Positions 1,756-55,930 of a stretch of DNA of 58,500 nt are shown piece by piece. Every line of letters starts with the position of its first letter. Position 1 is the stretch's first letter. Origin of the DNA: Bolinopsis microptera (taxonomy: Eukaryota; Ctenophora; Tentaculata; Lobata; Bolinopsidae); contig NC_087076.1 of assembly GCF_026151205.1 (NCBI RefSeq), positions 16,082,419 through 16,140,918 of the forward strand, read 5' to 3'. The translations under genes were made by a program, and so were the position numbers. The notes beneath the pieces were generated by a model that saw nothing but the letters and a program-made list of their open reading frames with translations, did not search any database and was not told the origin of the DNA.

Positions 1756-2315
1756 CCTTTGGATTTACGTCTGTGTCAAACGTAGTGACACAAAACGATA
1801 CCAATACTGATGTGACTCTGACATGTAACGGAGTGTTCTCCAGCAGTGGTGATGTCTCCGTCACTTGGTGAGTTTATCAACTAATTACAACACTACAAAT
1901 CTATTACATTTATTGAGTATTATGTATTGTCATGGAAACGTTTTAAACGGGTAAAAGCCAGTCTGGCTCCATAACATAAAGGCCTCGTTTTGATTTGTAT
2001 TGAGAAGCACTATAAATATTATTCGCTTATTATTATAGCTCTACTAAATTCAATAAAAACATAATATGTAAATAAATAAAACTTAATCACATTCCCACAA
2101 CCATACTAATCTCCACTCCCTACCCAGGTTAAAGGACGGCAACAAAGCTGATAACGGAGTAGAAAGCACCTCGGATATAACCGGAACAACCACTAAATAC
2201 AGCTACACGATAAGCTCAGCGAGTGTGTCTGACACCGGCATGTACCACTGTAGCATGACCAGTACCAGTGCTGGCACTACCGTGAAGAGTCTCGTTATGC
2301 CGCTCTATGTTAGAG
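1756..2315 (+). CDS. Receptor exons for Ig domain 1 (1756-1867, 2128-2315)
   Basis: The first exon gives VTLTCNG and ends within the Trp codon of VSVTW; the second starts LKDG and contains DTGMYHC. This is the classic Cys-Trp-Cys Ig pattern split by an intron right at the Trp. Splice sites are CAG/ before 1756, G/GTGAGT at 1867 and G/GTGGGT at 2315, leaving phase 1. The same two-exon-per-Ig layout recurs through most of the N-terminal half. Confidence 0.85.
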
Positions 2316-5300
2316 GTGGGTTATTGTTATTTGACACGTGGTTTGACACGTGGCAGCACGTGGTGTCACGTGGTTTGACACGTGGTGTTGTCGTGCAACG
2401 CACTTTAGTTCAAGTTTGTACATCATCACGACTAGATATTTACTGGTTAGAGATTGTTCCTGCTTCTCATGAGGCGTGTTTATTGTTTTCTTAAAGGCGT
2501 TTAATATTTACTAAATAGATTATTTTAGCAATATTGAAACTAAGTGACGGTGAGTTAAACATGAATGACAATTCTCTCGATAAAGCTGGTAACTAAGCCC
2601 TGCAATATGACAATTTTTCTTTATAAAGCTGGTAACTAGGCCCTGCAATATGACAATTTCTCTTTATAAAGCTGGTAACTGGACCCCACGATATGCTAAT
2701 ATATGCTAATTTGCTTATTTGCTAATTTGCCAATATCATAATTTGCCAATTATATACTAATATGCTAATTTTCCAATATCCTAATATGCTAATATGGTAA
2801 TATGTTAATATGCTAATTTGCTAATTTGCCAATATGCTAATATGTTAATATGCTAATTTGCTAATTTTCCAATTTTCTGATATGTTAATATGCTAATATA
2901 TGCTAATATATGCTAATATATACTAGTATATTCTAATATATGCTAATATATGCTAATATATGCTAATATATGCTAATATGTGCTAATATGTGCTAATATA
3001 TGCTAATATCCTAATTTGACTGTATAATGCTCGACCCAGGTTTCTTCGAGAGCCCCGTCTTCCAGTTGATCGACAAAGGAGGAGAAGCAACCATGAGCTG
3101 TTTAACGTCTGGAGGTTATCCAACGTCTATATCTTGGTACAAAGACGGCTCTATCGTAAGTTTACTTGTAATGAAATAATCATGTTGCATTATAAATTAA
3201 ATATCCGTGACTCTACCCAATGACACAAAACGATTAAAAAAGCGCTTTAGAACGCTTAACAATGAGGAAAGTAAATAACCAACCCCCTTCTTAACCTCAG
3301 ATTCCTCCCATCTCATTCAACAATAAAATTACAACGAGAGCGAGAGATACCATAAATGTAGGGTCTGATCTGTACATTTTCAACTCGAAACCCTCCGATG
3401 CCGGTGTTTACCAGTGCAAAGCAAAGTGGGATGATGTGGAGGCTGAGTCAGATGCAGCTTTGATGCTTCCCGCTGGTCAGTAAGGATACCAATAAATAGT
3501 CATAAGTATTGATATTGACGATTAACAAAGGGAGTGAATAAATAATATAAATAGTAGGTAAATAAATATAATAGTGAGTGACCTCCATCGTTAATTACTG
3601 CAAATAGTATACTGGCCGAACTGAAAAGTTTAAACTTTTGATAACAGCACTCATCAAAATAAAATTGCCTGGCTATTAGAGCATTAGTAGCGGACTTGTT
3701 GAATAAAACACGTGGCGTAAAACTAATTACGCGACCCTTTGTGCTATCATATACTTCTACAATAAAGGAAAACAATTAAAACTATTCAAATCGCTCTAAA
3801 TGATAAATTGACTGTTTAAATTCATAATTCAAAATTCTCTACTCAAATCACTTATCATACTAACCAAATAATTTATTTCTAAGCTCTTATTATTATTTCA
3901 GTGACTTATAATTTTAAGTACCTTTATCATGAAAACTGTAACGATATCGTTTCTACAAGCTTGCAAATAAACGTAATTAAAAGTAATTAAACTGATAATT
4001 TAAAAAGTAATTTAACCGCTAATTAACGAGTTGATACCACCCACAGAGGTAGCAATTAGTGAGCAGTTCGGTATTATCGGGAGTGCAACAACCCTCCTGT
4101 GTGTCGGTATCTCACCTGATGGCTACAAACCCCAACTCAGTATCTACAATGGAGAAACTCTCCTTTCTAAGAACGAGGACCCTGACCTGCTCAGTGTAAG
4201 TATACCTGCTTAGTTTCAGTATTATAATGGAGTACCACTCATTAAAATGGTCATCTGGAGAGCTCAGCTGCTTCGTAATTGGACTTAAAATTTGTAAGCC
4301 GACAAAATTGAGACGATGAAGGAAATTAATTTATGTAAATTAAGATGAATAATTTATGACTATTAACCATATGCAGGGCACGACGGACAGCTACAATGTA
4401 GCCCACGTAATAACGTCTGTGAAAGAATCTGACTTCACGGACACGTACAACTGCAGATTTGGGTACGACTCAGCATCTTTGACGAGCGAATCCTCCGAAC
4501 TCAAGAAAATAGGTAAGCAATAAACCTGTTACAATGTGTCCAATCAAATGGAAATGAGTAAGAAGGCACTAAGCACCGGACTCGTGTCCGGTGAGCAAAA
4601 TGTAATATCAGAACAACATACTGAAATAGGAAATGCTGGGGAATCAAAGCTGTGATTATTATTCTTGTATCAACCCAGTTATATTATTGGTCTGAAGATC
4701 TCTTTGTAACCTTATAAAGCGGAAGAGAACTATGATATCAAGGAATAAATCAAATTTCACAATTGATAATATTTGATCATGCGATCGACTTGGCAATGGC
4801 ATGGTTAATTAAAATAGCTCTATAGACTCTATTTTGGACGGCTTCCATCCTACAATTACATCATGCTCCTTCACGAATACCTCACTAATTGTCCCCCTCA
4901 CACACCAGCTAACCAATACCTTCCTTCAGACATGCTGTCCAGCTCGACCCCCCAGTCAGTAGCGTACGGAGAGTCCGTGACCCTGACCTGTACCTCAACC
5001 CTTGTCTCCAGTGCTGATGTAACCACCACCTGGGTCAAGGAAGAGTCTAGTGTGGCCAGTACTAACGAGGGACCCGCAGGTACATAACTCGGCTAACATT
5101 TATTGTCGAAATATTTTACCTTAACCCTTTAGAAATGCCTGGTAGTTTTTATGTACGACAGAACTCATTCTGTAAAACACAATTTTAATTGACGAAATAT
5201 TTAACCTTAACCCTTTAGAAACCCCAGAGTCTGTGTACAAAGCAAGTTTAAAGTTTGACTCAGTTAGTGATGCTGACGCTGGAATATACCAGTGCTCTAT

Positions 5301-8300
5301 GGACTACAAAAACATTGGTGTTCTGACCTCATCCGATATCATTCTCGGAATTGATTGTAAGTTTGCTACCTTTATTTTAACTTTTGGAAGGAATTTTAAT
5401 CTTTAGCCCTATATGATGTGGATGATATCAGGCATATACAATTACACTCAATCAAAAGAAAAAGGTTAATATTTGCAAAACAATTTGATGTTAACGAATA
5501 CAAGTATTAGTGATTAACGATCATAAAATAGTTAAGTTATCAAATTCTATGTAACGCATTTTAACGTCATTCTAAAACCAGCTTCCGCTCAACAAATCAA
5601 CTTGAACACCAATAACTATCAATCAGCACCAATAAGATTACTTGGTGAACGACCAATTAATAATTAGGTAATAGAGAACCTCTGACCGCTGCCGATGATT
5701 AAAATATGATGGTAGGAAAGTCGTACTTAAAACGGGCATTTGAAATAGTCTTTCTATTTCTCTAGAAGGAATGCAATCCAAGTGACAGCTCCATTTACGA
5801 ATTCCGTGGACGATTTACATCATAAATATCAAAAAATGTCGTGGTATATTGAATTGAACGAGTGTGAGCATGAGTGATGGATAAATTTGGATAATGCATA
5901 ACGAAAGGATGCATCTTGTAACGAAATTTGAAACTCATTATTCAAGCTGAGCTCCTGCATTGATTATGTGTCGTTCTAAGGAGTAAACAAAAACTCAGAA
6001 ACTACAAGGATAAATTCACTTTATAGATTGAAAGGGCCTCATGGAATTAAACTGATTAGTGTAGTCGGTGGTGGTTTAAATAGTGCAGATGTAGGCAAAA
6101 CTAGATTAGAGTTAGACTTTTGGGTTAAGAAGCAATAAAAGTTGACAAAACATCGTGCGCCTTTCAGAGGCACCGCTTACTAAATAGGCAAGAAACGGGC
6201 TGATAACCAACAACTAAACTTTACCTCCTCGATATAAATTTGTATTGGAACAAGTGTTGTCGCGCTGGCGAACGAATAAATAACAACGGCTACCGCTATC
6301 GTGCAAACTAATTACGTTGACAATTAACTAATAGCCGTTCAATTTTGGTGTTGAGTGAAACTTAATTCCCAAAAAACTGGTATTATCTCGGAAACTAAAT
6401 CGATTAAGTGCTATCATTCACGGCTGCTTCGACTGCCAGGGTTAACACCTTTTAAAGACTGACCTGTCTGAATATCGTTCAATGCAGAAGTTCAAAGTGC
6501 AACTAATGACAAAGTGACGATTGGAATGTAACATGAAGTCCAAACTTTGAAACTCATTCGTTGTCTGATTGCTGAAAATATTGATTATTGAAACCCACAC
6601 CTTTTTCAGCCTTCAAGACCCACCCCGAGGACAAGGTGATGTTCGCTGGGTACGAACTTATTTTGAGCTGTCTAATTAAATCTAACGTTGATATTCGGTG
6701 GAAAAAAGACGGAAACTTGGTCTCGGAATCTGTGAGTTACAGCTGTAAAGTACTGAAATTATACTTTATATTAGGAAATAATTGTAAAATATCATTATAG
6801 AATAATAAAGCTTATTGAAAATTATTAACCCCTGTCTCCTCAGGACTACATCTCAGTTCAAGGCAGCAGCCAATCCTCTTCCACCCTGACCATCACCAAG
6901 GCAACCTCTGCCAACAGCGGAGAGTACCTGTGTGAAGCCCCGGTCAACGGCAAGATTATCAACACCGACCCAGCCTCTGTCACCGTGTACGGTGAGTGGT
7001 CTAGGCCCCCTGTGGCCAGCGGACTCAGTCTCCAGCATTGGAATTGGGTTTTTTTTGTATTATCCTTAGCTCAGTTTTAGATTTTGATGTAGATCGTCAA
7101 AAACATCTTTTGGATTTGTTTATTCATATTTATATTGATATCTATTTATCAATATTTTATCATTTATTCACATTTATTTATTTATTAACCTATTTATCTA
7201 TATATATTTATTTATTTGTTAACTCGCATATTTACATATATTTATTTACTTGTTAACTTATTTATTTATTTTTTCTCCATAGACTCAGTGATGACAGTTT
7301 CTAATGAAGGTTTCGTTAGAAACTGTCATCACTGGGTCTATTCAGAAAAGTCAGAAATTTTCTTGAAAAAAAAAACATGAGACTCAATAATATAACACGA
7401 CTTAATCACATATTTATTTAGATAAGCCTTTTTTAAATCCGACTACTGGTAAAAATATCAAAAGAGGTTGTTCAGAATTTCCCTGTTATTAGTTTCTTTA
7501 AACACTTTTCAATAACTGCGGTGTAGTTATTGATTACTAGCATAATATGTTGAAAGTGGAATACAAAATGACTTGATTGTAGAGAACATTGGAACGCTGT
7601 TGCTAAACTGGAATGATATAACTAACTGGTAACATGGCGGGACCTTAAACCTTCAGGATCTAGAATTGGCGAACACGTTGTAAGCATTGTCCCTCATGAC
7701 GACAAATTATATTGACATTACGCAACTCTTTAGTCTTCACGTACCGGTAATCATTTACCGAGCGACCTTTCCATTGGAGGATGTAAGCAATCGGTATTGT
7801 ACGTAAACATGATTACTGAGCAGCTGACTGTACAAAGCTCATCTTTAAAGATAAAGTTTTGCTTAATAACAGAGAGCTCGGTTAATGGCCAGTAATATGA
7901 ATAATGCAAACTACTCTATCATGAGGTGCCATTGTCCACTACCAAGACAATGATATGACGTCAAAAAACAAAATCTATAATGACCGCGTCCACTTTGAAT
8001 ATGGCCACGGCCCATGATGCTGAAAATAGAAAATATCGCAAAAATAAACAGGCAGCTGTTTTTGCCGCTATATTTGCAGCTGTATTTGCGGAATATGTTT
8101 TCGAGATAATTTTAAATGAAGAGGCAAGTTATTATGAGCGGATGCTATTTCCAACAATGTAAGTATCTCGAAACCGGTGCCGGACGAGAGATAAGTCTGA
8201 GATAATTACTAATTTTGCAAGATTTTTATCTACAAAAAAACAGAAGAAGTCTAGGATCTTGATATAATTGTTTCGTGGTGAAACACTATATTTTTTTCTT

Positions 8301-11300
8301 TATTAAAAAATCGAATTCAATGGACAAAGCTTATTTTTATATAATTTCTCGTCGCAAACGAAAAATTTGAAATTTTGAATGATTTGAAAAGATCTTAAAC
8401 AGTATATTCTTAAACAATATTATATTATAAATTGTCTATGTTTAGAATTTTAACTTATCTTCTCTATTTCAGAGTTCGAATCTAGTCCAACATATAAAAA
8501 GGTGGTGGTTGGAAGTCCAGCAACTCTGAGCTGTTCCACCCAATCCATTCCAACAACTCCGACTATCACCTGGGAGAAGAACGAATCTGCTTTCACCCAA
8601 ACAAACCTAATCACTGATACCTCTGATTCCAACAGCCAGGTATTAAACTTTTTTATTCTGGATATTTTTTATTCTTCTGGAATTTCTGGGGTTTTATATT
8701 TTATTTCACTACAAAATAAACTAAAGATTTTCCCTAATCTGGTATAAATAATGGCTGACCATAATCCCCCTCAGTCCTCCCGTCTGGTCCTCCCCTCCAC
8801 CACACCAGATGACTTAGGAGTGTACCGCTGTAAAGCAGAGTACCCTGCTGACGACAACAATGTTGGAGGGATCCTGTATTCGGACGAAGCTGCTCTTATT
8901 GTCCTGTACATTGGCATGGAGTCTGCAGCTTCTACTTCTAATGGAAATTCTCTCACCATCACTGCTACTCTTATTAACGACAAGGAGGTTTTTAATGCGA
9001 ATATTTGTTGACGTTTTTTATGTTGTCGAAAATTGAGATTAAAATTTATGAACATTGTGTAAACTATTTAGTATTTATCGATATAAAGATTTTCGAGGTT
9101 AGGTTATGATAATATTTTCTCTTTCAGGCGACTATTAAATGGTACAAAGAAGGAACCCAAATCACGTCCGGAAGCGGTATCTATATCAGCCAAACCTTCC
9201 CTAACAGCTACTCAGTCGGAGAGTTCCAGTTCATCAAATCAGTCCTCACTATCTCCAGCTTTGTTAGCGATGATGTGGGAACTTATACTGCCGCTGCAAC
9301 TGCCACTTTCAACGGAAACAATCTTGATGTGACTAACTCCGTAGGAACCAAAGCTGATCTCTCCAACATTTTCCTAACCAACGGGGTCGGCAAAGAAGGA
9401 GATGATGTGACCATGTATTGCATGTATGAGGGTTCAGCTACCGTTAATATATTCACATACTACAAACGGGACAATAGTGGTGACTGGAAGGAAGTGGATA
9501 AAAGTTTAATCAGGATGCTGGTAACCTACTTATCAGTGGACACACTGGTGTCCGCTAAAACATTGACTGGGATGAGCGCTGCCAAGAGTGGCAGTACCTT
9601 AGAGATTCTAAACGTGGATAACGACGATGAAGGCTTGTACAAATGTTCGATTACTGATATAAACAGCATAAGAACAGATTCGAAACAAAGTAACCTGCAG
9701 CTGATATCTTGGAGCCTGCCGGAGAATAAGATGCTGGTGGAGACAGGAGAAACAGCCATGATAACCTGCACCTTCTCTGGACCTTCTGTCCCGGAGATAG
9801 AGGGACGAACTTTCGTTAGCTCTGCTTTCTCTAGTGACGAATATGCTTTGCTGTATTCTAAAGATAGCTCAACCTCTACTTCTAACAGTTTAACTAGGAT
9901 TACAACAACAGCTGTGTTCTCCAAAGTGATCACCAAGAATGGGCCGTTCAAGTGCCACGCCACTTTCAAGGACGAATCAAGCCCCGGAATTCAATCTGAA
10001 CTTGGCAGTGGCCAGGTTGAAATTCTAGCTGCTTCAATCGAGCTGGGAACCCACCAATCTTCCCTCCCTGTCTACGAGGGTGTTTCCTTCACCTTCATCT
10101 GCCAATACAGTTTCGAGACAGCAGGCACAGTGACCATCTCCCCATCTGCTGATGAAACCGTCACAGACGATGCCAGGGAGAATTTCATAACCACTGGTTT
10201 CAAAAACGGCCAGTTCGGAAAAATAACCTCGACGAGTTTCACTGGACCCTACATCTGCTCGGTGGAGATCGAGGGGTACACTATTTCCAAACAGCTGGAT
10301 CTAGATATAATACCTATACCTGCTGTTCCGAACCTGGAAGAAGTGATTGTCAGTACAGCGACTATGATTGGCTGACCTGTACTGTTACGAGTGATCTACC
10401 TCTCTTCAGCGTCTCCTGGTACACTAAGGAGGATGGAAAAGATCAATATGTTACCACCCACAGGTAGGGGAATATTATACATTTTCTGGTTAATCCGGAA
10501 GCAGAATAATAATAATAATTGTTTATTGATGGCGTCAAGAGACTTAAATTTAGTGATCTCAAATTCTAAAGAAAAAACAGTATCAAACCCAGAACTGAGG
10601 AAGGATACTCGAAGACAGGGGTGAGTGAGCGAATTAATGGTCTCGACTACTATAAAGATCGGGAGTTCACCTGCAAACAAACCATCCAATCTAGCTTTTA
10701 CGCCTCTGAAGTCTCTTTCGTGGTGAAACGTGTAGTGGTCAAAGTTGGAGGTGAGTTTCGTAAAATTTAAAATGTTATATATAGCTTGCCTTCCGCTTTT
10801 ATTAACATCGAAGCAATGTACAATTTCATGGAAGGGAATCTATCGGGTGGAATCAAAACAGTTTTTTGACCGCACTGAATGCTTGCAACCAGTGATAGTA
10901 GTGGCTGAGAATTTATTTCTGCAGTACATAATTCGAGATTCAGCCAGCAGCTACAACTTCAGTTAAATCTATAATCGTAACTCTAAATTCCACCAGGTGT
11001 CCGAAAGTTCGGCGTATCTTCAACTTCTCTGTACGTCGGGGACAAACTGACAGTAACGTGCAGTACTGAACAGGGCACTACAGCTCGTCTGTACCGCGGT
11101 TTCAGTGAGCAGTCCCTCAGTTCTACATCTACCACTGACAATGTGAGTTTATAACATTCAATAAGGTTGTAGTTTTTATTGCTCACTAAATGACAATTTT
11201 ATGTTTTACTGTATCGAGTATCGACGAATTGAACTCTGTCAACAAATTTTAGTACTCTAAATTGGTTCCTTATTCCTCGAAGCGTCAACAGGAATTCACC

Positions 11301-17300: not shown

Positions 17301-20300
17301 TGGTCTTTAAAACAAGTATAATTATGTTAAACATGATTGTAATGTTGATAAGAAAACATAAAATCCCTATTCTATGTTTTCTATCAATTCATTACAAAAT
17401 ATCTTGATTATTAAATAGAGGTTCTCACCTGATCTTCTACAGTCTGGATCTCTTACAGTTGTCAGCACTCCTTCCCTACACTGCACTTCTCTTCCCCCAA
17501 GGTTAACATGGTTCCCTCCACAGATCACCCTCACCTTCATGCCGTGTTTTACTGGCAGTGCTGGAACTGTTTCTTTTCTTATATTCTTCCAGGACACGTC
17601 TAATTCCGTGCAGTCTTCTAATGAATAAATAAATTATTAGAAACTCTAGAATTCTATAAAGTGCCCATTATCTTATAGCTTTATAAATATTTGCTACCGA
17701 TAACACAAAGCAAGAGTTCGGTATAAATACTTACTTAAATGGCTGATGCGACGACAGTTTGCTAATTGTGTTGTCCCCTTTGACCAGATCCACTTTGCAC
17801 TGTGGGAGATATCTCCATCGATAAAATTACCTCCGTGGTCCTTCTCTCTGGCACTTTCCCAAGTACTATCATCAAATTCTTTTTGCAGCCAATCGGCATT
17901 TTGCTCATCCTTTGAGCATCTCCAGGTGTGGTCAGTTACTAGGATATCATTTTCTTCGGTATCTTCCACTGAAGCTAATATACCGTAGTCACCCCCTGCA
18001 TCCTTACAATATATTCCGATCACCTGGAACGATGCTGGTATTTCAAAGGTAGATTCTTCACTCCAATTGTCCAGTTTTTCAGACGACTGTTCCTCGCCGT
18101 CCACATACACTTTCATGTAATCGTCACATGTTGCTCTCAGGATGTAATGGTCTGATATAATTGTGATTATAGAAAACTAGCAGGAAAAGAAATTAGGATA
18201 CGACTTTTTATTAAATGGGAATAAGCTTGATGGCAAAACTTTTAACTGCAATCTTTCTTACCTGACCATGCTGCACTAAGAGGTGCCATCAGTAACAGAA
18301 GCAGCATATAAGTCATTATCATAAGACTTATCTCAAAACTTTAACTATAATAATTCCTTTTAATAAAGTTTTATAACAGGTAAAGGGACTACCTTAATTT
18401 AAAATATTCGACACTAAGATATTTTGTTTAAAACGATGGCTGTAAAAAGGGATATCTAAAGAAAGGTGTTAAGAAAGTGGCTGTTGTTAAGATGGACGAT
18501 TTAAAGAGAAGCCTAAAGTAAAATTTGGCATTCAAGACTGAGGACCTGTTCAGTGTTAACTTTATGTTTTGTTAAGTTAAGAAAGCTTTCGATTGATGAT
18601 GCAGATCATAATTTTCATGTTGGGATTTTTGGAATAGTTATATACATACGAAGCATTAACTAAAACTGAAGCTCAACATGTTAAGGAATAAACAATAGCG
18701 CGTGCCTCCAAAGTCCAACTATTTGTGGATTATACTTATAGCTGGCCTTCTCTAATCTCTTCCTGCTAGGGCGATAAACAGATGGTGTTGTAACACGATT
18801 GTTGCTTTATAGTTTTAGAAACTTCAAGGTGGTCGTAAATGAACTGAGCGTCAAGATTAGCAAACCAGATATTTAAAGAGAGGCGTAAAGAACGTATCTG
18901 TGGCACATGCTTTGCTATATAATAGAGATAACATGAATTACACGTACCCAGTATGGATGGTAAGAGAGTTACACTAATCTAGGTCTCTTCTCAAACTCGT
19001 ACTGTTCTTCACTTCATTCTCTTTTTCACCTTATACCACTGGTCATTCGTTTAAAATCTAACAATAGAAGAGAACAGCTACATTTATCTTTAGACCCCAG
19101 GCTCTGAAACCAAGCTATTTAAATAAGAATCAATTGTGCAGCTCACTACTTTGTGATCTGAAAACTAACTGATATTATTTCCAGATGTGTGTGAGGTGGG
19201 AACAGTGATGTTCGGAACAACAGATCCTCCAGCCGGGTACCGAGTAGAAGCTAACACCAACATCGTCACCACCTGTGACCAGGGCTACTTCATCGGAACT
19301 AAGACTTCTGTTACTCACACATGCGGCACTACTCAGTTCTGTTCAAGTGAGTCTAGACTTATTGTTAGGGCCGAATTCCTGCATAACTTTCTGGACAAAG
19401 CAATCAACAATCAACATGTTATGACAACATTCCACAATAAACTAACACCACCGTTTCCAGGTGTGCTGATGTTATCAGGGTACGAAGGGTACGCCAGCAA
19501 GGGACACAGCTACAGTCTGACGTGTCAGTACACCACTGACGACACCTCTGCTCGGCTCACCTGGTACAGGGACAACATCCTCCTCGAAAACACTGCTACT
19601 GACGTGACTGATTCCCAGACTACCACAAGGTAAGTGGGGGAGATATGAGGTGATCTTGGTAATGTAACCAAGGTGAATGTATGGATAAGATTTTCCATCA
19701 TCATGATATTTATTTTGTTAAAGGAAGTTTAGTGATTATAATTAATTGAACTGCCTGTTTCAGTGTGTTGGACGTAACAGTTGACAATAGTGCGGAGTAC
19801 TCTTGCAAACTCGGCTCCACTCTAGCTGACCACTCTCACGAAGTCACTGCTCTAGGTAACCAGAACATAAACCTGACACGTGTTAACTTTTACCTGACAC
19901 GTGTCAACATTTACCTAACACGCATGTTAACATTTATCTAACACGTGTTAACTTTTATCTAACACGTGTTAACTTTCTAACAACCATACCGCTAAACTAC
20001 TAGTGTATGACTGTATAACACGAAACTAACAAAGCTAAACTTCAGTAAATGATATTGGTGTGAGCGCTACTCTAATTGTTGGAAGCACCTACACTTTCAC
20101 TTGTGCTGGGCAACAACCCGAGGGAGTGGATCTTCCTCCTAGCATTGCCGCTTTTATCAACAACAAGCAGGTTCGTGGTTAAACTTTTGGGGTAATTGCT
20201 CGACCGAAATTAAGTTTACAAGGCACTCATTCAAATTTCAAGGACCTAATTCCCATAATTTATTGTTTTTTAACACACTTATTTAATACTTCTATAATAC

Positions 20301-23300
20301 ACACAGATACCAATCGTGGTAGATATCAAATACATGTCAGACTTGTATATCATTTAAACGTAAATCGTTTTATCCAGGTGTATGAGGGAGACCTTTCTGA
20401 TGATGGTCTGTCCCTGAAAGTTGAGTTCCAGGCTACTTCAGACATCAGTATCACGTGCGAGTTCATCTACATCCAGGTGGATGAGGACGTGTTTGTTACT
20501 AAGGAAAACGGCAATGGATTCAACGTTATAGGTTCGTTAGTTTGTTTTTGGACTATGTTTCTTGTCATTGGAAAACTGAATTTTTAATGTAGGAAAACCG
20601 AAGTTTTAATGTAGGAAACCCCCTCTTCGTGCAGTATTTCAGTAAATGTCTTGTAATAAATTCCCCTTTTTCTAAATCTCCAGGTGTTATCAAAGAGCCC
20701 AGCCGAAATATGTTCATTCCAGTAAACACCAACCACGATATCGAGTGCGAGATGCACAATGTTGACTCCATCAGCATCGTGAAGGTCAGCTCAGGTGGCA
20801 CTGAAACTGTGGTGCAAACTACCCCTAACGGCGGTTCTGCCTCCTACACCCTGAACTCAAACACTCCGGAGACTGCTGACTACTACTGTCTCGGAACTAA
20901 AGATGGTTACTCCGTGGAGACTTCCAGATACACCTACACCGTGGTTAACACAAACGTGATCTCGGGACCAACTGACCAGTACACTATTGGGGAGAGTGTA
21001 AAGTTTGAGTGTCTGGTACCCGCTGGAACCACCGTCAGTTTTAAGAAAACAGACAACAACGCTTTGGACCTATCAACCCAAACCTCGGAGAACAGTGGTG
21101 CTAACGGTAACACCCTCTTTACTCTGACCATCTCAAATCCCATTGAATCAGATAACGGCGAGTATTTCTGCGAAGGTAACAACGGCAGGAGCTCCGGTGC
21201 TATGTTGAACTATGTACGGATCCTCTCATCTCCTAAGGACCTGTACCGGGATGAAGGACAAGCTGCTACGTTTGTTTGCAAAGCGTCAGGTTATGTCAGT
21301 ATAATGTGGACCACACCAACTGGTTTTCAAACCCCTGATCACACCTTCGTGACAGAGACAGGTGACACCATAGCAGAGCACAGTCTAACAGCGGAACAGG
21401 CAGGTATCTATTATTGTGTGGCTGCAGATATTGTCAGCAGCAAGTCCGCTAAACTTGTGGTGATGAAAGTACAGTTGATCGTTCCTGACGCAGTGAAGTC
21501 CGGTGAGGAGGTTGAGATCTCCTGCGTGGTATTTGGAGATCACGATGGTGTTACTATTTCTAACCAAGGACGATTATTGACCACTGAGACACCTCTCGAT
21601 GCGATGAGCACCATGGCCAAAGGAGGGGGTACCAAATACTTCTCCAAATACGAAGTCTCTCTAAGCTTATTCACTGAGGGTGTTACTAACTTTGCTTGCA
21701 CCGCCTACTACAACAACTTTGGAGACGTGCACAAAGAAGAAGGACAATCCTACTTTGTTGGTTTCTACAAGCAACCATCTGACATCCTTCATCTAGCCGG
21801 GACATTTGAAATCGTAGCTCAGGTGGGCTCCTCTCCTAAAGATAACATCGTGCTGGCTCTCTACGATAGTGAGAACACTCAACAAGACACTAAGACTGCA
21901 TCTGGTGGCTTGAAGAGCGTGTCAATTCCATTGACACGCTCTGTAGCTAGTACCGGCAGGTATTACTACGAGTTGAACGTGGGAGGTGAGACTATAAAGT
22001 CTGATCAGTTTACCATCACCACCTACGGTGCACCCATTGCTGGAAACTATGAGATTTATTACCCAGGCAGCAAGATAGATTCTCTGACACTGATTTGTGT
22101 CCTGAGGATGCCTCTGGGGTCCCCTGTAACATGGACTGATGCTAACGGAGATAAGCAGGGCTCTGACAACCCTCTCATCAGCACCAAGTACTCAGGAAAT
22201 GATCAGATCATGACGTCTACCTTCACAATCTCCGCTCCTGGTACTGGTTACTCTTGTTCTGCCACCATTCTCGAGACAAAAGTTACTGTTGGCTACAAGG
22301 TCTATCTCCAGAACTATGCTCTGGTTCCCGAAGACAAGAACAATGTGTTCTATGATACTATGATCCAACTGAAGAGCTCACCCGCCTCTTTTAACCCAAG
22401 AGTCTTTGCTCCTGATCAAACTGAGATCGATCTTAGTCAACCCTTGAATTTGTATGAAAGTAGAGACTTCACCTCTGAATTAATGTGGACTTGGGGAGAC
22501 GAGGAAAGTTTATTTATTCAAAGCGATACACTCAATGTAGCAGGAATTTACATCGCTGAACCTACCAGTACAGGACTAGTTGCTGGAGAGGATACCGAGC
22601 TGCAGTGCACGGCCACCCAAACAGCTGATATCTTCGCTAAGAAGATTAAGTGGACAGTCCCTGATGGAACCCTGACCTCCAACCAAAAAACACTATCTTT
22701 GGGTTCAGACCCTAATGCTGATGTTTCCAAGACAACCGTTACATGGAGAAACAGCTTAACGTCTGGTTCTACGGTTACGATCACCTGCACTGTTGATTTC
22801 TCTTTTAAGGATGGGTCTCCTGATGTTACGAAAGTAAGAACGATCGTCGCCGCAATAGACAAAAAGTGTTACGCCGTGTATGATCTTGATGATGGAGTTG
22901 TCACCGCATCCGGAACCTCTATCTTCCCCGGAGAAACTGCCTCTGTGAAGTGTAATGACGGTTTCCAACTCTCCGGTCAGTCTGAATACAGGTGTTCGGG
23001 AGGAGCGCTTTGGAGCTCTCCACCTAGATGTGTAAGGAAGAAACTGCTGTGTCCTACCATCGCCCCTATCTCCGCTCTTGTCAATTACGATCACCCTGAC
23101 CTTACTCTGCAATGTGTTGGACACTTTTCTGCCTTTCAAGATCCGCCTCGTCTTAGGTGTGAGGATTATGGCTGGAACCTACTGTCTGTATCTAGCTCTG
23201 TAAGCTCATTCCAGTTTTGCGGAGAAAAAATCACTCCGTATTCAAAGTCTGTGACTGTAACCGTTACTTACGGCAATGGAGACCGAGACTGCGATACTGA

Positions 23301-26285
23301 GGGAAAGAAGACGGCTGCTTTCCTGAGATATCAAGGAGAAGTAGATCTGGAACTGACCGGAATAACAGAAACTCTTGTTGGTTGCAACACTACTCCTGAT
23401 GGCTACGCGTTATCTGTAAGTTGGTTCGAAACTTGTGTTATGATTCAAACGTATCTTAAAGCATTACTTTTGCTTCCACATAGCGTTTTGATTATTGCCT
23501 ACAATAATTCACTCGAAAATGATCTCTTTTAATTTTGATAATTTCTCTCTGCAGGTGAAATACTCGGTAAACTACATTAACCTTGCTAAACATGATTATC
23601 TGGACTTGGAAGATTTACAACAAAAGATCACTATATCTGATGGAGACAATACCAATAAACGAGCTGCTTCTTGGGAATTTGATTCAATCGTAATTGCTTG
23701 GGACTTGGAATGCCCGCTGGGAGCTCCTGCTTTCAAGGATCAGTGTGGTTTGTAAATTTAGTGATATTATAGTAGCTCCTTTTTTCAGCTCAGGACGCTT
23801 TAGTTATGTTTCATTAATTTTTACGGGAAGACACTGATATTTACTATTTCAACGTACCCTAATGTGTTATCCCTCTCTCAGTTGAGTGTCCTGCGGGATA
23901 TTTTTCGACCGGTACAGCGTGCGTAGCGTGTCCTAAGGGTGAATACCAGTATGAGGCAGGTAAAACCTACTGTATAGCCTGTCCTGGTGATGAGACTACC
24001 CCCGGAACTGCCTCTGCAAAGTCTGATGAATGTGGAGGTAGGGTTACAATCACTTTACTTCTTCTTAAACATATTTCATTCTCACTACTTGCTGCTCAAT
24101 GGTATCCATCTCTCGTTATCCCGCTATAATTTCTCGTAATCTCGCTATAAATTAATGATTGTACAATACAAATCTACATCAAGGTAAATTATTTAAACCC
24201 CTTACTCCCTCTCAGTTTCGTGCAGAGTCCCTAATGTGAGCAACGGATCCACTTACCCACTTGGAGACAGTACCATAACAAATGGTATCGGAGTAACTGT
24301 TAAGTGTGACTCCAATTTCTCTCCTCCATATGGTAGCGATGACACGTTCTCTTGTGACCAGTTTGCAGCCTTGGACGATCCTGAAGGCTTTTGTCACGGT
24401 TGGTTTCTAGATAACTAAGTTGTGGGATTTCTTATTGGGGACTCAGAAAGCGTGGCTTCTTATTAATGATTCTTTGCTTCCGTAGATTTCTTAAGAATGT
24501 TAATTGCTAACCATGGTTTATTTTTCAGAGGTCTGTTATGTACCGGCAGCTATGGTCTCAGATAACCACTTGAGCATAACAGCAGCCACCAGTTACATTC
24601 CTGGGGAGACTTTCGATGTCGAATGTGTTGAAGGGTACACCCTTAAGAGCACATCAAACCCCAACATTGAGTATATCTCCTATAGGTGTGACGACGGTGA
24701 GCTGATGGAAACCTCAGCTGGTCTCTGTGAGAAGGACGGTCTGTCCGGTGGTTTGATAGTTGTGATTGTGATCCTGGTCATCATCTTCCTCCTCATTCTC
24801 TGTTGTATCCCACTCTGCTGCTTCTACATGAAGAAGAAAAAGGAGGAGGAATATCAAGATAGTGAACAAGATGTAGAGATGAGGCCTGAGAGTGCCTTTA
24901 GTTGCAGCAAGCATGTTATTGTTAGGGGTAAAGACGACTCTGGAGCACAGATTGGCAATAGTAACCCCTTCAAGGTGTCCGGATTCAACGACTACATCAG
25001 AGGCATGGCAATCAATAAAAACGAGGGCTTCATCAAGGAATTCAGGAGCATCTGTGTGGGAAGTGACACAAAGAAGATCGTATCTCAGTTAACGGAGAAT
25101 TACGATAAGAACAGATATGGAACCATCACAACATATGACCACTCCCGAGTCAGACTCCTGAAGATAAACAACGATCTCAACTCTGACTATATCAACGCCA
25201 GTTACATAAACGGATACGTCACCCCGAATGCTTACATCGCCACTCAAGGTCCTCTAGATAACACAGTGAACGACTTCTGGAGGATGGTATGGGAGCAGAA
25301 CGTCTCCTCTGTGGTGATGCTGACAAACCTAGAACAAGGCGGCCAGAAGAAGAGCGTCAAGTACTGGCCTGATGAATCTGTGGAGCAGTACGGAGTTGTT
25401 AAAGTCACCAAACAGTCTGAGAACAAGTTCCCAGGATTCCTGGTCAGAGAGCTCAAGTTAGAAGTGGAGGGATCCACCAGGACCGTCCTGCAGTTCCACT
25501 ACACAGAGTGGCCCGATGTAGGGTACCCAGTGGAAGTCAAGTTCCTTACCTTCCTCTACTACATCAGATACATGAGACAGGACTCCAAGAAGCCGCTAGT
25601 CGTGCACTGCAGTGCTGGCGCTGGGTGGACTGGAGTCTTCGTCGGTATGGACTTTACACTGGACCGACTAACTAAAGAGGACACTATTGATGTGCTGGGA
25701 TGTGTAAACAGTATGAGACAGCAGAGGTCCGCTATGGTTCAGAACGAGCCTCAATACATTTACCTTCACAAACTCCTGCTAGACTCTGTCAACAGTTCCA
25801 ACTTCAACCGACTCAGAGCTAATCGATTTAGATCAAGTAAGTTTCTCATACACAAATAATCAACTTCTTCACTGCAGTAACACGTAGATAAATAGTAGGC
25901 AGTAGAAAGGGAGACACTTTGACGTTCCGACTGAATTAGAGTAAGCAAGCGATATCTAGCGTAATTTGTGTGCTAGAAAGTTCGTTGTTTGATGTAATTA
26001 CTTAGGAGACCATTCTGAATTCAAGGAAAGATATATGTTATTAATATACGAAAGTCAAATCTCACATTTACACGCCCTTTAAGTTAGATAAATTGAAGCT
26101 CATCTTCCTTTAAATAAGCACTCTGCAATCTAAATAAACTTCAACTTTAGTTCTAATCAATTATATGATATTTATATTCCCTGCATGAACACTCGATATT
26201 AATTATTATATTTTCAGATCTGGAGGGTGCTATATTCGTTAACGAAGGAGCGAATGGAATTAACGAGTACGAAGCTGGAATTTGA
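1756..26285 (+). CDS. Giant Ig/CCP/GCC2-GCC3 receptor with one cytoplasmic PTP (pseudophosphatase) domain, 5' incomplete
   Basis: Thirty exons chain in matching splice phases (9,688 coding nt, ~3,220 residues). Domain order: 12 Ig (1756-11528), CCP (11685-11903), unassigned domain X (12201-12587), GCC2/GCC3 (12730-12876), CCP (19185-19346), ~10 Ig (19461-22860), two CCP-like units (about 22860-23220), second X (23220-23747), GCC2/GCC3 (23882-24037), two CCP (24216-24740), one membrane helix (24751-24830), a Lys/Glu-rich juxtamembrane stretch and one PTP domain. It is a type I plasma-membrane receptor; Ig and CCP domains suggest protein-protein recognition outside the cell. Known receptor PTPs such as LAR combine Ig with FN3 and two PTP domains, so this architecture is unlike them. 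The signature motif reads HCSAGAGWTG, with Trp for the catalytic Arg. It may be one gene or two tandem ones: the splice 12876 to 19184 is in phase and repeats the GCC2-CCP order seen at the 3' end, favouring one. One frame break is at about 10343. Confidence 0.8.
2330..2395 (+). repeat. Short CACGTG-rich repeat just after an Ig exon
   Basis: GACACGTGGTTT-type words recur five times in about 65 bases. Each contains the palindrome CACGTG or its ACGTGG variant. It lies in the intron after Ig domain 1. Confidence 0.7.
2577..3015. repeat. Intron satellite: three ~45-bp repeats followed by a TGCTAATATA array
   Basis: The word AAAGCTGGTAACT with its flank AATATGACAATTT occurs three times at about 2577-2690. 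It is followed by some 320 bases of repeated (A)TATGCTAAT words, becoming a near-perfect 10-bp TGCTAATATA array at about 2890-3010. The array ends about 30 bases before the next exon. Confidence 0.85.
3040..3475 (+). CDS. Receptor exons for Ig domain 2 (3040-3155, 3301-3475)
   Basis: The Ig core is visible as ATMSCLT, ISWYKDG and DAGVYQCKA. Donors are ATC/GTAAGT and G/GTCAGT; the acceptor of the second exon is CTCAG. The Ig is entered in phase 1 and split in phase 0. Confidence 0.88.
4047..4512 (+). CDS. Receptor exons for Ig domain 3 (4047-4195, 4377-4512)
   Basis: The start at 4047 after CCCACAG is chosen because it restores phase with the exon ending at 3475. The core residues are TLLCVG and DTYNCRFG; the usual Trp is not obvious. 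Donors are AGT/GTAAGT and G/GTAAGC. Confidence 0.83.
4930..5356 (+). CDS. Receptor exons for Ig domain 4 (4930-5079, 5219-5356)
   Basis: VTLTCTS, TTTWVKE and DAGIYQCSM give the Cys-Trp-Cys core. The first exon ends in phase 1 (GCA G/GTACAT), unlike the other Ig pairs. An acceptor-like decoy (TTAACCCTTTAGAAA) is duplicated about 90 bases before the real acceptor at 5218. Confidence 0.83.
5357..6609 (+). other. Receptor intron, no gene seen
   Basis: A 1.25 kb AT-rich intron. I see no ORF with family resemblance and no clear repeat. Confidence 0.6.
6610..6991 (+). CDS. Receptor exons for Ig domain 5 (6610-6731, 6844-6991)
   Basis: LILSCLI, IRWKKDG and NSGEYLCEA form the Ig core. The exons have TTCAG and CTCAG acceptors and GTGAGT donors. 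The pair is phase 1 outside and phase 0 inside, like Ig 2. Confidence 0.88.
6992..8472 (+). other. Receptor intron with a hairpin and T-rich low-complexity DNA
   Basis: A 1.48 kb intron. From about 7100 to 7275 it is simple TTTA/TATTTATT sequence. A perfect-stem hairpin follows at 7281-7339. The remainder shows nothing recognisable. Confidence 0.6.
7281..7339 (+). other. 24-bp-stem, 11-nt-loop hairpin (miRNA-precursor-sized)
   Basis: The arms 7281-7304 and 7316-7339 are reverse complements over 24 positions, with only one T:G wobble. The loop is 7305-7315. The total length is 59 nt and it is transcribed in sense with the receptor pre-mRNA. It could be an intronic miRNA-type precursor, a hairpin RNA or a tiny MITE. 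The sequence cannot tell which. Confidence 0.75.
8473..8987 (+). CDS. Receptor exons for Ig domain 6 and start of Ig 7 (8473-8639, 8775-8987)
   Basis: ATLSCST, ITWEKNE and LGVYRCKAE give Ig 6. The second exon runs on into the N-terminal half of Ig 7 (ending LINDKE), so here two domains share an exon. The donor at 8987 (GAG/GTTTTT) is weak. It is chosen because it is in phase with the acceptor at 9127. Confidence 0.8.
9128..10463 (+). CDS. Receptor multi-Ig exon (rest of Ig 7, Ig 8-10, first half of Ig 11), with a frame break
   Basis: The exon opens ATIKWYKEG in phase with 8987. It encodes three further complete Ig domains: cores VTMYCMY...LYKCS; AMITCTF...PFKCH; FTFICQY...PYICS. Introns that split earlier Ig domains are absent. 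The frame that is open from 9128 hits TGA at 10373, but the -1 frame carries an obvious Ig half (WLTCTV, VSWYTKEDG) up to a donor at 10463. That half joins in phase to the exon at 10581. So the reading frame changes once, between about 10343 and 10356. Confidence 0.78.
10581..10750 (+). CDS. Receptor exon, second half of Ig 11
   Basis: The acceptor AAACAG/T at 10580 is chosen because it completes the codon left at 10463 and leaves an open frame through INGLDYYKD and REFTCKQT. A nearer AG at 10619 would not keep phase. The donor is G/GTGAGT. Confidence 0.72.
10997..11528 (+). CDS. Receptor exons for Ig domain 12 (10997-11142, 11402-11528)
   Basis: LTVTCST and MGDYNCEIK mark the two Ig cysteines. 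The donor of the first exon is AAT/GTGAGT and of the second A/GTAAGT. This is the last Ig of the first module. Confidence 0.85.
11685..11903 (+). CDS. Receptor exon, CCP/sushi-like domain
   Basis: The exon encodes about 73 residues with a CCP-like cysteine series: RCEDL, LICST, TCTYTCSG, TTTCRDTGYW and a final PSC. The YW near the last cysteine stands in the usual CCP Trp position. Extra cysteines make it atypical. It is a phase 1-1 exon, freely insertable between others. Confidence 0.72.
12201..12587 (+). CDS. Receptor exon, unassigned domain X, copy 1
   Basis: A single 129-residue phase 1-1 exon between a CCP and a GCC2/GCC3 repeat. Predicted pattern by eye: strand (YKAVMVVTFG), helix (EIFNFITEQKFRDLD), strand (CKIKWLIES), helix/acidic segment (PDDLLEVRTAERS, VEEEEDADES), ending FLVECPAGSG. 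A second copy with the same neighbours and start pattern lies at 23220-23747. I do not recognise the family. The alternating pattern could fit a ferredoxin-like fold such as SEA, which is speculation. Confidence 0.7.
12730..12876 (+). CDS. Receptor exon, GCC2/GCC3 (ephrin-receptor-like) cysteine repeat
   Basis: The motif CGVGTYSTNQDCVSCPVGSY...CKSCSNGKST...CL is the GCC2/GCC3 pattern (C-x-x-G-x-Y/F ... C-x-x-C-P-x-G-x-Y ... C-x-x-C). Phase 1 at both ends. It is paralogous to the exon at 23882-24037. Confidence 0.9.
13241..13272 (-). other. 13-bp-stem hairpin directly after the stop of copy A
   Basis: GAAAACATAGAAT, a CCCT loop and ATTCTATGTTTTC form a perfect 13-bp stem at 13242-13271. The minus-strand stop codon (13273-13275) is immediately upstream, and a minus-strand AATAAA lies at about 13192-13197. 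A near-identical hairpin lies after copy C (about 17350-17380). It may be a 3'-UTR stem-loop. Confidence 0.75.
13317..14216 (-). CDS. Nested secreted galactose-binding-like/CCP protein, copy A
   Basis: Three exons on the minus strand: 14216-14162, 14042-13614 and 13505-13317. Exon 1 encodes a signal peptide (MTYLLLLLLMAPLSAES). Exon 2 encodes ~143 residues starting HYILSATCDDRMKVYVDG and containing TWRCSKDE, FDDSTWESA and WIWTKD. This is the style of galactose-binding-like (jelly-roll) domains in which a DDSxW and a WIWT motif recur. Exon 3 is a CCP: CTRLDVSW, VRVICG, VQCREG, DPDCRRS. All junctions are phase 1 with good GTAAG/GTGAG donors. If the last donor is not used, translation ends 14 codons later at 13273, just before a hairpin. 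Product: probably a small secreted glycan- or protein-binding factor. The function is unknown. Confidence 0.8.
14410..14576. repeat. Dispersed ~165-bp repeat, inverted relative to 30956-31125
   Basis: The stretch from ATATATATGGATCCGTACCAT to AAAAAATTGGCC matches the reverse complement of 30956-31125 with few differences. The ORF over it is not protein-coding. It lies between nested copies A and B. Confidence 0.85.
15187..15791 (-). pseudogene. Nested galactose-binding-like gene, copy B, lacking the CCP exon
   Basis: Exon 1 (15791-15737) encodes the signal peptide MTYMLLLLLMAPLSAAWS. Exon 2 (15618-15187) is an intact 144-residue domain with TWRCSKDE, FDESTWEIA and WIWTKD, and keeps its GTAAGT donor. 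No CCP exon follows before copy A's first exon. In its place is duplicated spacer DNA. It may be a decaying copy. It may also splice in phase (1-1) into copy A's exon 2 or 3 and give a two-domain or chimeric protein. Reading through the donor gives about 29 more residues to a stop near 15101. Confidence 0.65.
16118..17340. repeat. Duplicated spacer blocks between nested copies
   Basis: Words such as CCTTATACTACTGGTCATTCG, GAACAGCTACATTTAT and ATTGTGCAGACGGATATTATAT occur at both 16118-16400 and 16937-17200. Related copies lie at 14959-15075 and 18947-19145. They show that the nested gene and its spacer were copied as one unit more than once. Confidence 0.8.
17350..17381 (-). other. Hairpin after copy C, paralogous to 13241-13272
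   Basis: GAAAACATAAAAT and ATTCTATGTTTTC flank CCCT. The stem is the same as after copy A except for one mismatched pair. It lies at the same distance downstream of the CCP exon. Confidence 0.72.
17429..18316 (-). CDS. Nested secreted galactose-binding-like/CCP protein, copy C
   Basis: Exons on the minus strand: 18316-18262 (signal peptide MTYMLLLLLMAPLSAAWS), 18151-17735 (galactose-binding-like domain with CDDYMKVYVDGEEQ, TWRCSKDE, FDDSTWESA, WIWSKG) and 17617-17429 (CCP with CTELDVSW, VRVICGG, VQCREG, DPDCRRS). All exons are intact and join in phase 1. This is the first copy along the minus strand. The exon 2 tail is shorter than in copies A and B (KGTTQLANC). It is likely a secreted binding protein, like copy A. 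Confidence 0.8.
19185..19346 (+). CDS. Receptor exon, CCP domain after the nested cluster
   Basis: CEVGTVMFG, AGYRVEANTNIVTTCDQGYF, VTHTCG and QFC follow the CCP spacing. It starts in phase 1 after CCAG and ends A/GTGAGT. The GCC2/GCC3-then-CCP order matches exons 23882-24398. Confidence 0.83.
19461..19855 (+). CDS. Receptor exons for Ig domain 13 (19461-19629, 19764-19855)
   Basis: YSLTCQY, LTWYRDN and SAEYSCKLG form the Ig core. The intron splits the domain in phase 2. Confidence 0.86.
19862..19980 (+). repeat. Tandem ~22-bp ACACGTGTTAACTTTTA repeat
   Basis: Five units of (C/A)ACACGTGTTAAC(A/T)TTTA(C/T)CT lie straight after the Ig 13 exon. Each unit contains the palindromes ACACGTGT and GTTAAC. 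The other CACGTG-rich block of this gene (2330-2395) sits in the same position, after an Ig exon. Confidence 0.85.
20046..20531 (+). CDS. Receptor exons for Ig domain 14 (20046-20170, 20378-20531)
   Basis: YTFTCAG and DISITCEFIY mark the two cysteines of a divergent Ig. The donors GTTCGT are weaker than elsewhere, but both keep phase. Confidence 0.75.
20684..23415 (+). CDS. Receptor 2.7 kb exon: about eight Ig domains, two CCP-like units, start of domain X
   Basis: One uninterrupted exon of ~910 residues. Ig cores in order: HDIECEM...DYYCLG; VKFECLV...EYFCEG; ATFVCKA...IYYCVA; VEISCVV...NFACTA; a Cys-free Ig-like unit ending GRYYYELNV; LTLICVL...GYSCSA; a degenerate unit (about 22310-22540); TELQCTA...VTITCTV. 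Then CCP (CYAVYDLDDG, ASVKCNDGF, YRCSGGALW, PPRC), a second CCP-like unit (CPTIAPISA to FQFC) and the first half of X (ITPYSKSVTVTVTYG). The acceptor is CCAG at 20683 and the donor TCT/GTAAGT at 23415. Compared with the two-exon Ig units upstream, this exon has lost its introns. Confidence 0.85.
23555..23747 (+). CDS. Receptor exon, second half of domain X copy 2
   Basis: This exon continues X with VKYSVNYINLAKHDYLDLEDLQ (strand then acidic helix) and ends FDSIVIAWDLECPLG. X copy 1 is one exon but copy 2 is split here in phase 0. The donor is G/GTTTGT. Confidence 0.78.
23882..24037 (+). CDS. Receptor exon, GCC2/GCC3 repeat, copy 2
   Basis: ECPAGYFSTGTACVACPKGEYQ...CIACPGDETT...DEC fits the GCC2/GCC3 pattern. 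Acceptor CTCAG; phase 1-1. Confidence 0.9.
24216..24398 (+). CDS. Receptor exon, membrane-proximal CCP 1
   Basis: SCRVPNVSNGSTYP, VTVKCDSNF, FSCDQF and GFC give four cysteines in CCP spacing. N-NGS is a possible N-glycosylation site. Donor G/GTTGGT. Confidence 0.82.
24529..25836 (+). CDS. Receptor exon: CCP 2, transmembrane helix and degenerate PTP domain
   Basis: The exon begins with a CCP (EVCYVPAAM, FDVECVEGY, YRCDDGELM, GLC). A ~26-residue hydrophobic helix from GLIVVIVILV follows, then KKKKEEEY and a complete classical PTP fold. Motifs in order: YDKNRYGTI, DYINASYINGY, YIATQGPL, DFWRMVWEQN, HYTEWPDVGYP (WPD loop with its Asp), VVHCSAGAGWTG and QQRSAMVQNEPQY (Q loop intact). The active-site Cys is TGC at 25608-25610. 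The invariant Arg of HCx5R is replaced by Trp (TGG, 25626-25628). Loss of that Arg normally abolishes phosphate binding and catalysis, so the domain is probably a pseudophosphatase or phosphotyrosine reader. Confidence 0.92.
26218..26285 (+). CDS. Receptor terminal exon
   Basis: After TTTTCAG the exon adds ~22 residues (NLEGAIFVNEG...NEYEAGI) and a TGA stop, in phase with the donor TCAA/GTAAGT at 25836. There is no second PTP domain. Confidence 0.75.
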
Positions 26286-55140: not shown

Positions 55141-55930
55141 ATGGACTCATATATCATTAGTACAATTCCAACGATTTCTGAAAAACATTTTGGAAAAAAT
55201 TTTTTGGCAAAAATTTGTCCCCCCCCCCCCCCCCTCCCCCCACTTTTTTCAGGCCTTATATTGCTTAGAAAAGGTTTAAGTACACTTTTGTCACCAATAG
55301 AACCTTTTGAAACCGTATACAGCTAATTTAAGTGGATAAATATCAATAATACGTAATTCCCCTCTAATTCCCCTCCAATTCCCATGAAATTCCCATGGAA
55401 ACAATGTTTCCAAAATGTTTCCAAATATGAGGAATCATAATATCCTTTTAAATATTGTACCCATGTCCCATATTCATGGTACAAGAAATCTATTAAAGCC
55501 AATAAGTAATAATGAAAACTATTGTGTACTGTACATGACTACATCTTTGCTTGCTTATCCTCTATTGGAATATCGGGAACTCTGCCAATTGTAGTCCTCA
55601 ATGTACGTATAATACGGGTGGAAGGCCTGGATCTCATACCAATAAATAACCTTTATTGTGTAGATATGAGAGGAAGAGAGGGGGCAGAGGCGGGGGGGGG
55701 GGGGGCGACCCCTGTTATATAAATTAACCCCTGTTAATTTATATTACATATTCTGATATTAAACGAGTAGCTGATTTTGATAAAATAACATCGTGATCAA
55801 TTATTTTAATTGAAGTACAACGGCTGCACCCCTGACTTTTTAACTTAATAAGAGACGTATATATTAGGACACTTGTAATTTGATGAAATTTAAAGTTTTG
55901 GTGTGTGAGTTAAAGGTCTTTAAGAGCCCC
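55141..55930. other. Low-complexity stretch with poly-C and poly-G runs
   Basis: A run of ~15 C at about 55219 and a run of ~13 G at about 55692. Nothing coding was seen. Confidence 0.6.

Follow-up and report, generated by a model that had tools for sequence, protein, structure and literature searches.

How far does the immunoglobulin (Ig) receptor locus that ends at position 26285 of this Bolinopsis microptera stretch extend, and what kind of receptor does it encode? The window, i.e. the whole stretch of 58,500 nucleotides that was analyzed, is C5:16082419-16140918; window coordinates are used throughout, and negative values lie upstream of it. We also read the 150 kb upstream of the window and searched the genome (264.65 Mb, 232 contigs; the listed matches are all on C1-C13). 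The genome has innexins, and one of its iGluRs finds its best match in the Mnemiopsis leidyi ML032222a structure, which speaks for a ctenophore and against a sponge; another iGluR is closest to kainate receptors, and a search for COX1 in the assembly found none. Exon models came from a simple custom gene finder that combined splice matrices with a codon usage learned from the ORFs of the window. Ig domains were totaled by hand from the exon lists, and the Pfam scan covered selected exons from part of the gene. With about even confidence, we read the window locus as the 3'-terminal part of a gene that spans approximately 145 kb of the plus strand (-119062 to 26285), was built by unit fusion and would encode an exceptionally long receptor serving as an extracellular tether or in adhesion.

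Pfam matches in plus-strand ORFs bore out the domain types proposed in a first-pass annotation of the window: Ig, CCP, GCC2/GCC3 and PTP. The scores are 38.4 and 38.0 bits for the GCC2 domains (cut-off 23.1), 254.8 bits for PTP (cut-off 20.9), 51.3 bits for sushi in a CCP of the second half (cut-off 20.7), and 57.8 and 64.0 bits for Ig_3 (cut-off 30). The proposed total of about 22 Ig domains agrees with our hand count of 12 in the first half and 10 in the second. The first complete Ig in the window (1756..2315, exons 1756-1867 and 2128-2315) follows Ig exons at -3616/-354 and farther upstream. Ig domains 2-6 (3040..9011) are split over two exons each (3040/3301, 4047/4377, 4909/5219, 6585/6844 and 8473/8748). 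Ig domains 7-12 (9113..11528) take in a long exon from 9128 and the pair 10997/11402, with an Ig_3 E-value of 1.6e-15 for 9113-10375. Exon borders at 10.3-11.1 kb are uncertain: one gene-finder run placed a false stop and restart at 10375/10433, and a later run passes through via another donor. The first half closes with a CCP (11685..11903), a domain called X (X1, 12201..12587, an exon with both splice sites and no Pfam match), a GCC2/GCC3 (Ephrin_rec_like) domain (12730..12876) and a further CCP (19185..19346).

The second half has 10 Ig domains (19479..22842; Ig_3 1.9e-17). Eight of them are in a long exon from 20684, and the usual cysteine pattern is missing in two of these eight. A CCP (22866..23035) and a second CCP-like stretch, assigned by reading, lead to X2 (23036..23739), read by eye as two exons with a phase-0 intron (end 23414, next 23556). 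A GCC2/GCC3 domain (23882..24037), a CCP (24216..24398) and a last, juxtamembrane CCP (24529..24730) come next. The transmembrane segment GLIVVIVILVIIFLLILCCIPLCCF (24750..24824) and the receptor-type PTP domain (25035..25836) complete the protein. The probable last exon (26218..26285) was predicted by the gene finder, which independently gave the annotated stop at 26285. All these features are on the plus strand.

Both halves had been said to end in the order CCP-X-GCC2-CCP. The order holds, but the sameness of X is unsupported: X1 and X2 occupy equivalent positions, and X1, in a tblastn search, matched itself alone, with no similarity to X2. The CCPs are present as proposed, yet four of them fail Pfam on their own: those at 11687 (17.4 bits) and 24531 (17.0 bits) fall below the cut-off of 20.7, and Pfam returns nothing at E 0.05 for those at 19187 and 24218. 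Homology links three of the four to other CCPs: 19187 to -17186, which passes (22.3 bits), 24216 weakly to -17183 (E 0.003), and the juxtamembrane CCP to 22888 (6e-5). As a candidate reading from sequence, X may be a SEA-like domain with basic cleavage motifs. An X-like stretch before the GCC2 at -17516 (window -18410 to -18185) has the multibasic motifs RKKR, RFRR and RNKR, and X of the paralogue L004 (see below) has RKRS. These motifs are possible furin-type cleavage sites.

The join of 12876 to 19185, on which the two halves depend as one receptor, was recovered by the independent gene finder, and its flanking exons are homologous to a single upstream pair. GCC2 12732 has its best match in GCC2 -17514 (54%, 4e-12) and CCP 19187 in CCP -17186 (40%, 3e-9), and these two upstream exons are 172 bp apart. 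Because the exons flanking the gap are closest to adjoining upstream exons, we interpret the gap as an intron that received minus-strand genes. This 6.3-kb intron contains tandem minus-strand gene copies (13273..18322) of a small secreted type, which do not belong to the receptor. By reading, they comprise a signal peptide (MIMTYMLLLLLMAPLSA), a domain ending in WIWTKD..C and a cysteine-rich CCP-like part. Their signal-peptide-like exons are at 18322 and 15797, and the copies gave no convincing Pfam match.

The receptor had been taken to start at 1756. This was not borne out, as plus-strand Ig exons go on for approximately 119 kb upstream, running in order from -118.8k into the window. Of the proposed two tandem modules, the duplication of an ectodomain unit is supported, but the number is not: additional GCC2 domains are found on the same strand at -118.5k, -25.4k and -17.5k. 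The CCP and X of the node at -23k to -17k were read from weakly scored exons. Beyond about -119k there are repeats and an opposite-strand gene that reads as glypican-like. By eye we picked out a candidate first exon, MRVLQWFSVVLLLN (-119062..-119020), whose phase-1 end joins on to the -118813 exon. It lies below both cuts of our first-exon scan for signal peptides (hydrophobicity 1.98 vs 2.0, donor 3.3 vs 4), and because the scan missed this candidate, its sensitivity is limited.

Split Ig halves of matching phase span the wide gaps in the series (-95585/-90772, -33080/-28875 and -3616/-354). The 5' block is partly collinear with the -17.5k block: the GCC2 and CCP correspond, as do -115142/-11166 (8e-8), -113068/-5435 (2e-9), -111827/-4745 (3e-4) and -108628/-3616 (7e-3). 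The collinearity has gaps, with best matches of -115522 to -16354, -114822 to -24718 and -117314 to 9128, and the 5' exons -108020, -107723 and -106136 match out of order. The step from -105.4k to -90.8k includes an ORF rich in Cys and, by reading, a reverse-transcriptase-like segment. The final gene-finder chain from upstream into the window contains spurious exons, which were dropped by hand. It opens on one of them (-118161) and sets a false stop and restart at -87207/-86771 within the Ig array, where the splice sites of the A exon are intact. In this chain, 128 of 198 exons are phase 1-1, with spurious exons counted.

Most of the Ig series is an array from -90384 to -35163 of 111 one-exon Ig domains, in which 56 A-type and 55 B-type exons alternate without exception. 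One A copy matches C1-set at 24.2 bits (cut-off 21). The one B copy scanned has no Pfam match; it is homologous to A (20/65 identical, 2e-8) and has the cysteine and tryptophan pattern. Full length in one frame is retained by 106 of the 111 exons, and 102 of these have the standard phase-1 AG and GT, with an edge break in the other four. The remaining five copies each lack one base but keep both splice sites, a pattern expected from assembly errors or recent damage.

The array exons are strongly constrained. Of 1378 pairs per type, dS is defined for 1332 in A and 951 in B; the other 46 and 427 were left out of the dN>dS counts. Median dN/dS is 0.17 for A and 0.16 for B, with maxima of 0.40 and 0.49, and in no pair of either type, all 1378 included, is raw pN above pS. 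Mean pS is 0.53 (A) and 0.67 (B). When substitutions alone were simulated to the observed divergence, 4.8% (A) and 1.7% (B) of copies stayed stop-free under neutral drift. Introns shorter than 300 bases (49 A-B and 46 B-A; sampled pairs) are barely more alike (0.684 and 0.678) than shuffled ones (0.651 and 0.652). Low dN/dS, stop-free frames beyond neutral drift and barely similar introns indicate that selection, not recency, keeps most array exons alike. Conserved exons with dissimilar introns suit a long chain with a structural role better than a repertoire that diversifies. Copies at even lags are more alike (A 0.786 at lag 2 vs 0.751 at lag 1; B 0.709 vs 0.654), which points to duplication in units of two A-B pairs. 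A pseudogene array is ruled out by the intact frames, splice sites and purifying selection, and recent amplification is ruled out for most copies by the mean pS values, yet some B copies are up to 97% alike.

Does one gene carry the whole series? We consider it fairly probable that at least one transcript does. One gene is favored by the single PTP match, the single coding-like transmembrane segment, the gaps bridged by split Ig halves, the partial collinearity of the 5' block, and the closest relationship of GCC2 12732 and CCP 19187 to neighboring upstream exons. Two neighboring genes are possible, on the unlikely side: an upstream Ig-array gene and a second gene of approximately 38 kb from -12267 to 26285, with 29 Ig, two CCP-X-GCC2-CCP nodes, TM and PTP, of which the receptor first annotated in the window would make up most. 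Such a boundary is suggested by MIIVILLCFLSLTEQQWLPDAVDTQICDGNCL in CACCATGA context with a phase-1 donor at -12267 (L003 7733-7829), between two Ig of the series. It is the sole plus-strand signal-peptide-like first exon passing the scan from -120k to +30k, follows about 1.7 kb of non-coding-looking DNA, and is stronger than the rival first exon at -119062. (The minus-strand scan returned six rows at two places, both inside antisense gene copies.) However, in the 5' block, relatives of exons on either side of the -13990|-11427 boundary stand in a single run (GCC2, CCP and -115142, which resembles -11166), and the -12267 exon could be an alternative promoter of one gene. The upstream gene would also lack a coding-like membrane anchor at its end: the plus strand has 20 hydrophobic stretches between -120k and +30k, of which the segment at 24750..24824 alone has a clearly coding local score (10.7; next 1.9). 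The C4 paralogue described below is collinear with the -17.5k block only to -14650 and is thus silent on this boundary. Whether there is one gene or two, the two-node receptor with PTP found within the window stands.

Alternation and constraint also bear on what the array does. The first-pass annotation had offered self/non-self or pathogen recognition, and a receptor with diversifying Ig for that purpose seems improbable to us. A large Ig/CCP ectodomain, related arrays at several loci and the divergent window Ig domains (mostly 25-55% identity between related exons) would suit it, and an immune survey of M. leidyi reports proteins in which CTLD and SRCR occur together with Ig and sushi domains (PMC11797021). 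The same survey centers on TIR2, NACHT, SRCR and CTLD receptors, and the word "phosphatase" occurs 0 times in its available text (PMC11797021); within the array, no pair of either type has pN above pS. Recognition is thus unsupported rather than refuted, as the selection test covered the array in a single assembly. Allorecognition receptors of the Alr and fuhc type are marked by extreme allelic polymorphism under diversifying selection. We regard Dscam-like splice choice, with A-B pairs as alternative cassettes of which few enter each transcript, as more doubtful still. The symmetric phase 1-1 of 102 of the 106 full-length exons means that any subset keeps the frame, and tandem cassettes are described for chelicerate Dscam in the available text of PMC4835542. 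Against this, the two exon types alternate without exception, no signal-peptide-like exon of the array passes the scan (whose sensitivity is limited), and the introns are little alike. A docking or selector signature was not found: shared intron words stay within shuffled maxima, except for one 10-mer in 4 of 49 A-B introns (shuffled maximum 3). The strict alternation, the strength of the constraint and the sheer length favor a structural chain.

At the other end of this chain, the receptor-type PTP layout is present, with extracellular domains, one TM and a cytoplasmic classical PTP domain. The domain aligns over its full length to PTPRS D1, and PTPRS is the best solved-structure match. Its P-loop reads HCSAGAGWTG: the catalytic Arg is replaced by Trp and an intact HCxxGxxR is absent, whereas the Cys, WPD, KNRY and Q-loop Gln are retained, as read from the alignment. 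Loss of catalysis with this change follows from what is known of PTP P-loops. The domain is probably catalytically dead, as judged from its residues, and on the basis of the Arg-to-Trp change we class the receptor as a pseudophosphatase relative; the earlier designation as pseudophosphatase is likely correct. Genome-wide, the PTP exon has one 100% match and the next is at 42%, so there is no second haplotype copy. Other PTP loci were rejected as close relatives after gene finding in 10 kb each: C4 6.77 Mb and C11 4.21 Mb have no Ig/CCP/GCC2 ectodomain, and C9 15.1 Mb has other exons.

Related loci occur elsewhere in the genome. A paralogue lies 2.9 Mb away, at C5 18.98-19.03 Mb, in two parts approximately 29.5 kb apart that we infer to form one gene. 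One part, L030, begins GCC2-CCP-Ig, and the other, L004, ends Ig-CCP-X-GCC2-CCP-CCP-TM-PTP (GCC2 by Pfam, the first CCP by weak homology, the rest by reading). By eye, the PTP of this paralogue is more degenerate, with Ser for Cys, Tyr for Arg and no WPD. No A or B array match was among the matches listed at this locus. In the genome searches, 150 of 920 A-type and 150 of 447 B-type candidates were scored. At a C4 locus, a GCC2-CCP-Ig start is followed on the minus strand (3526382-3552326) by at least 27 A-type matches that recur every 950 bp, 25 of them with the same score; at least 21 B-type matches of identical score lie between them. This array is very recently homogenized, unlike the old one upstream of the window. 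Among the matches listed, A and B types also interleave or adjoin at C1 16.75 Mb, C2 17.45 Mb, C6 1.62 Mb, C9 8.52 Mb, C9 9.75 Mb and C10 14.50 Mb. From this alternation at further loci we tentatively suggest that A-B pairs serve as a standard building block at the cell surface of B. microptera. On C7 (10780926-10794561, plus strand), fifteen-odd listed B-type matches of near-identical score at a 951-bp period adjoin an A-type match at 10777582, and this B-type array is recently homogenized. On C9 (3637257-3677032, minus strand), PTP-domain matches are preceded by A-type Ig exons; this locus may be another phosphatase receptor with an Ig array.

The architecture had been put forward as possibly undescribed, and in the literature searched (the best-ranked part of several result sets) no paper matched it by title or abstract start. 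The LAR-type receptor phosphatases (PTPRS, PTPRF/LAR) have in common with it one TM, a classical PTP domain and an Ig ectodomain. They differ in combining few Ig domains with FN3 and two PTP domains, whereas here there are about 165 Ig, CCP/GCC2 nodes and one PTP without the P-loop Arg. No FN3 was among the Pfam matches of the segments scanned, which cover part of the gene, and the tandem D1-D2 arrangement is absent, with one PTP match in the window. Titin/connectin is likewise a giant chain, built of Ig super-repeats. Titin lies inside the cell and carries FN3 and a kinase; here, the TM and PTP are at the C-terminal end, there are candidate signal peptides, and neither kinase nor FN3 was among the Pfam matches of the receptor segments scanned. 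Hemicentin resembles it as an extracellular protein with a long Ig run, and has about 44 Ig and no PTP. Dscam (arthropod hypervariable Dscam and chelicerate sDscam) offers tandem duplicated Ig exons. The hypervariable form has same-type alternative Ig clusters from which one exon is chosen per transcript, in contrast to the two strictly alternating types here. Each chelicerate sDscam cassette has its own promoter and signal peptide, whereas between -90.4k and -35.1k no signal-peptide-like first exon passed our limited-sensitivity scan. Connectitin was reported absent in ctenophores in a 2025 study, according to its available text (PMC12198301).

Returning to the single-gene reading, the hand count gives about 165-170 Ig domains in a predicted protein of approximately 17,700 residues. 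From the N-terminus it would have GCC2-CCP, 12 Ig, the 111 alternating A/B Ig and 13 Ig with a GCC2 among them. A first CCP-X-GCC2-CCP node (about -23k to -17k) would follow, then 22 Ig that extend into the window, a second node (11685-19346), 10 Ig and a third node (22866-24398), and at the end a CCP, one TM and one PTP. The simplest history we infer begins with a single-unit receptor, GCC2-CCP-Ig(n)-CCP-X-GCC2-CCP-CCP-TM-PTP, which would have been duplicated in tandem. The copies would then have fused in frame at the GCC2-CCP cassettes present at both unit ends, and the A-B pair would have been amplified in addition. An Ig domain is approximately 4 nm long, so the chain would exceed half a micrometer if extended. 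Most probably it would keep the GCC2-CCP-Ig head at the N-terminus well away from the cell and carry load, and the catalytically impaired PTP domain would act as an adaptor rather than as an enzyme.

We tentatively propose that ctenophores, independently of titin, evolved a family of titin-sized extracellular receptors. In the case described here, a 145-kb gene for ~17,700 residues and ~165 Ig domains would have grown by repeated unit fusion and would make a single-pass, half-micrometer tether that relays load or contact through its dead phosphatase. Should a single transcript span the entire series, titin-scale Ig chains would have arisen separately, and extracellularly, in an early animal branch, and the receptor would to our knowledge be among the largest membrane receptors known. 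It offers studies of long-range adhesion or mechanosensing in ctenophores a candidate that can be tested, and it illustrates how receptors may grow when tandem copies fuse in frame. Such genes can be missed by single-window surveys or short gene models; the window holds less than a fifth of the series.

Several other features were noted in the window, downstream of the receptor. Two similar single-exon ORFs on the plus strand (36508-37050 and 39940-40539) have a signal-peptide-like start and a hydrophobic end, GPI-anchor-like by reading, and no Pfam match. A 390-aa single-exon ORF on the minus strand (41594-42763) reads as seven-helix-receptor-like and matches no Pfam receptor family at E 0.05. 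Another minus-strand ORF (48466-49254) encodes a protein-kinase domain (Pfam Pkinase 6.6e-38). Near-identical inverted copies at 50527-50760 and 51508-51738 encode repeated CNVYATSMQ-like peptides. Repeats of a few hundred bases with long ORFs on both strands at 53000-55200 resemble a satellite or a palindromic element. Elsewhere in the genome, the innexin pairs C1:4254005/4378223 and C7:6754013/6935049 have identical scores and are possible assembly or haplotype duplicates.
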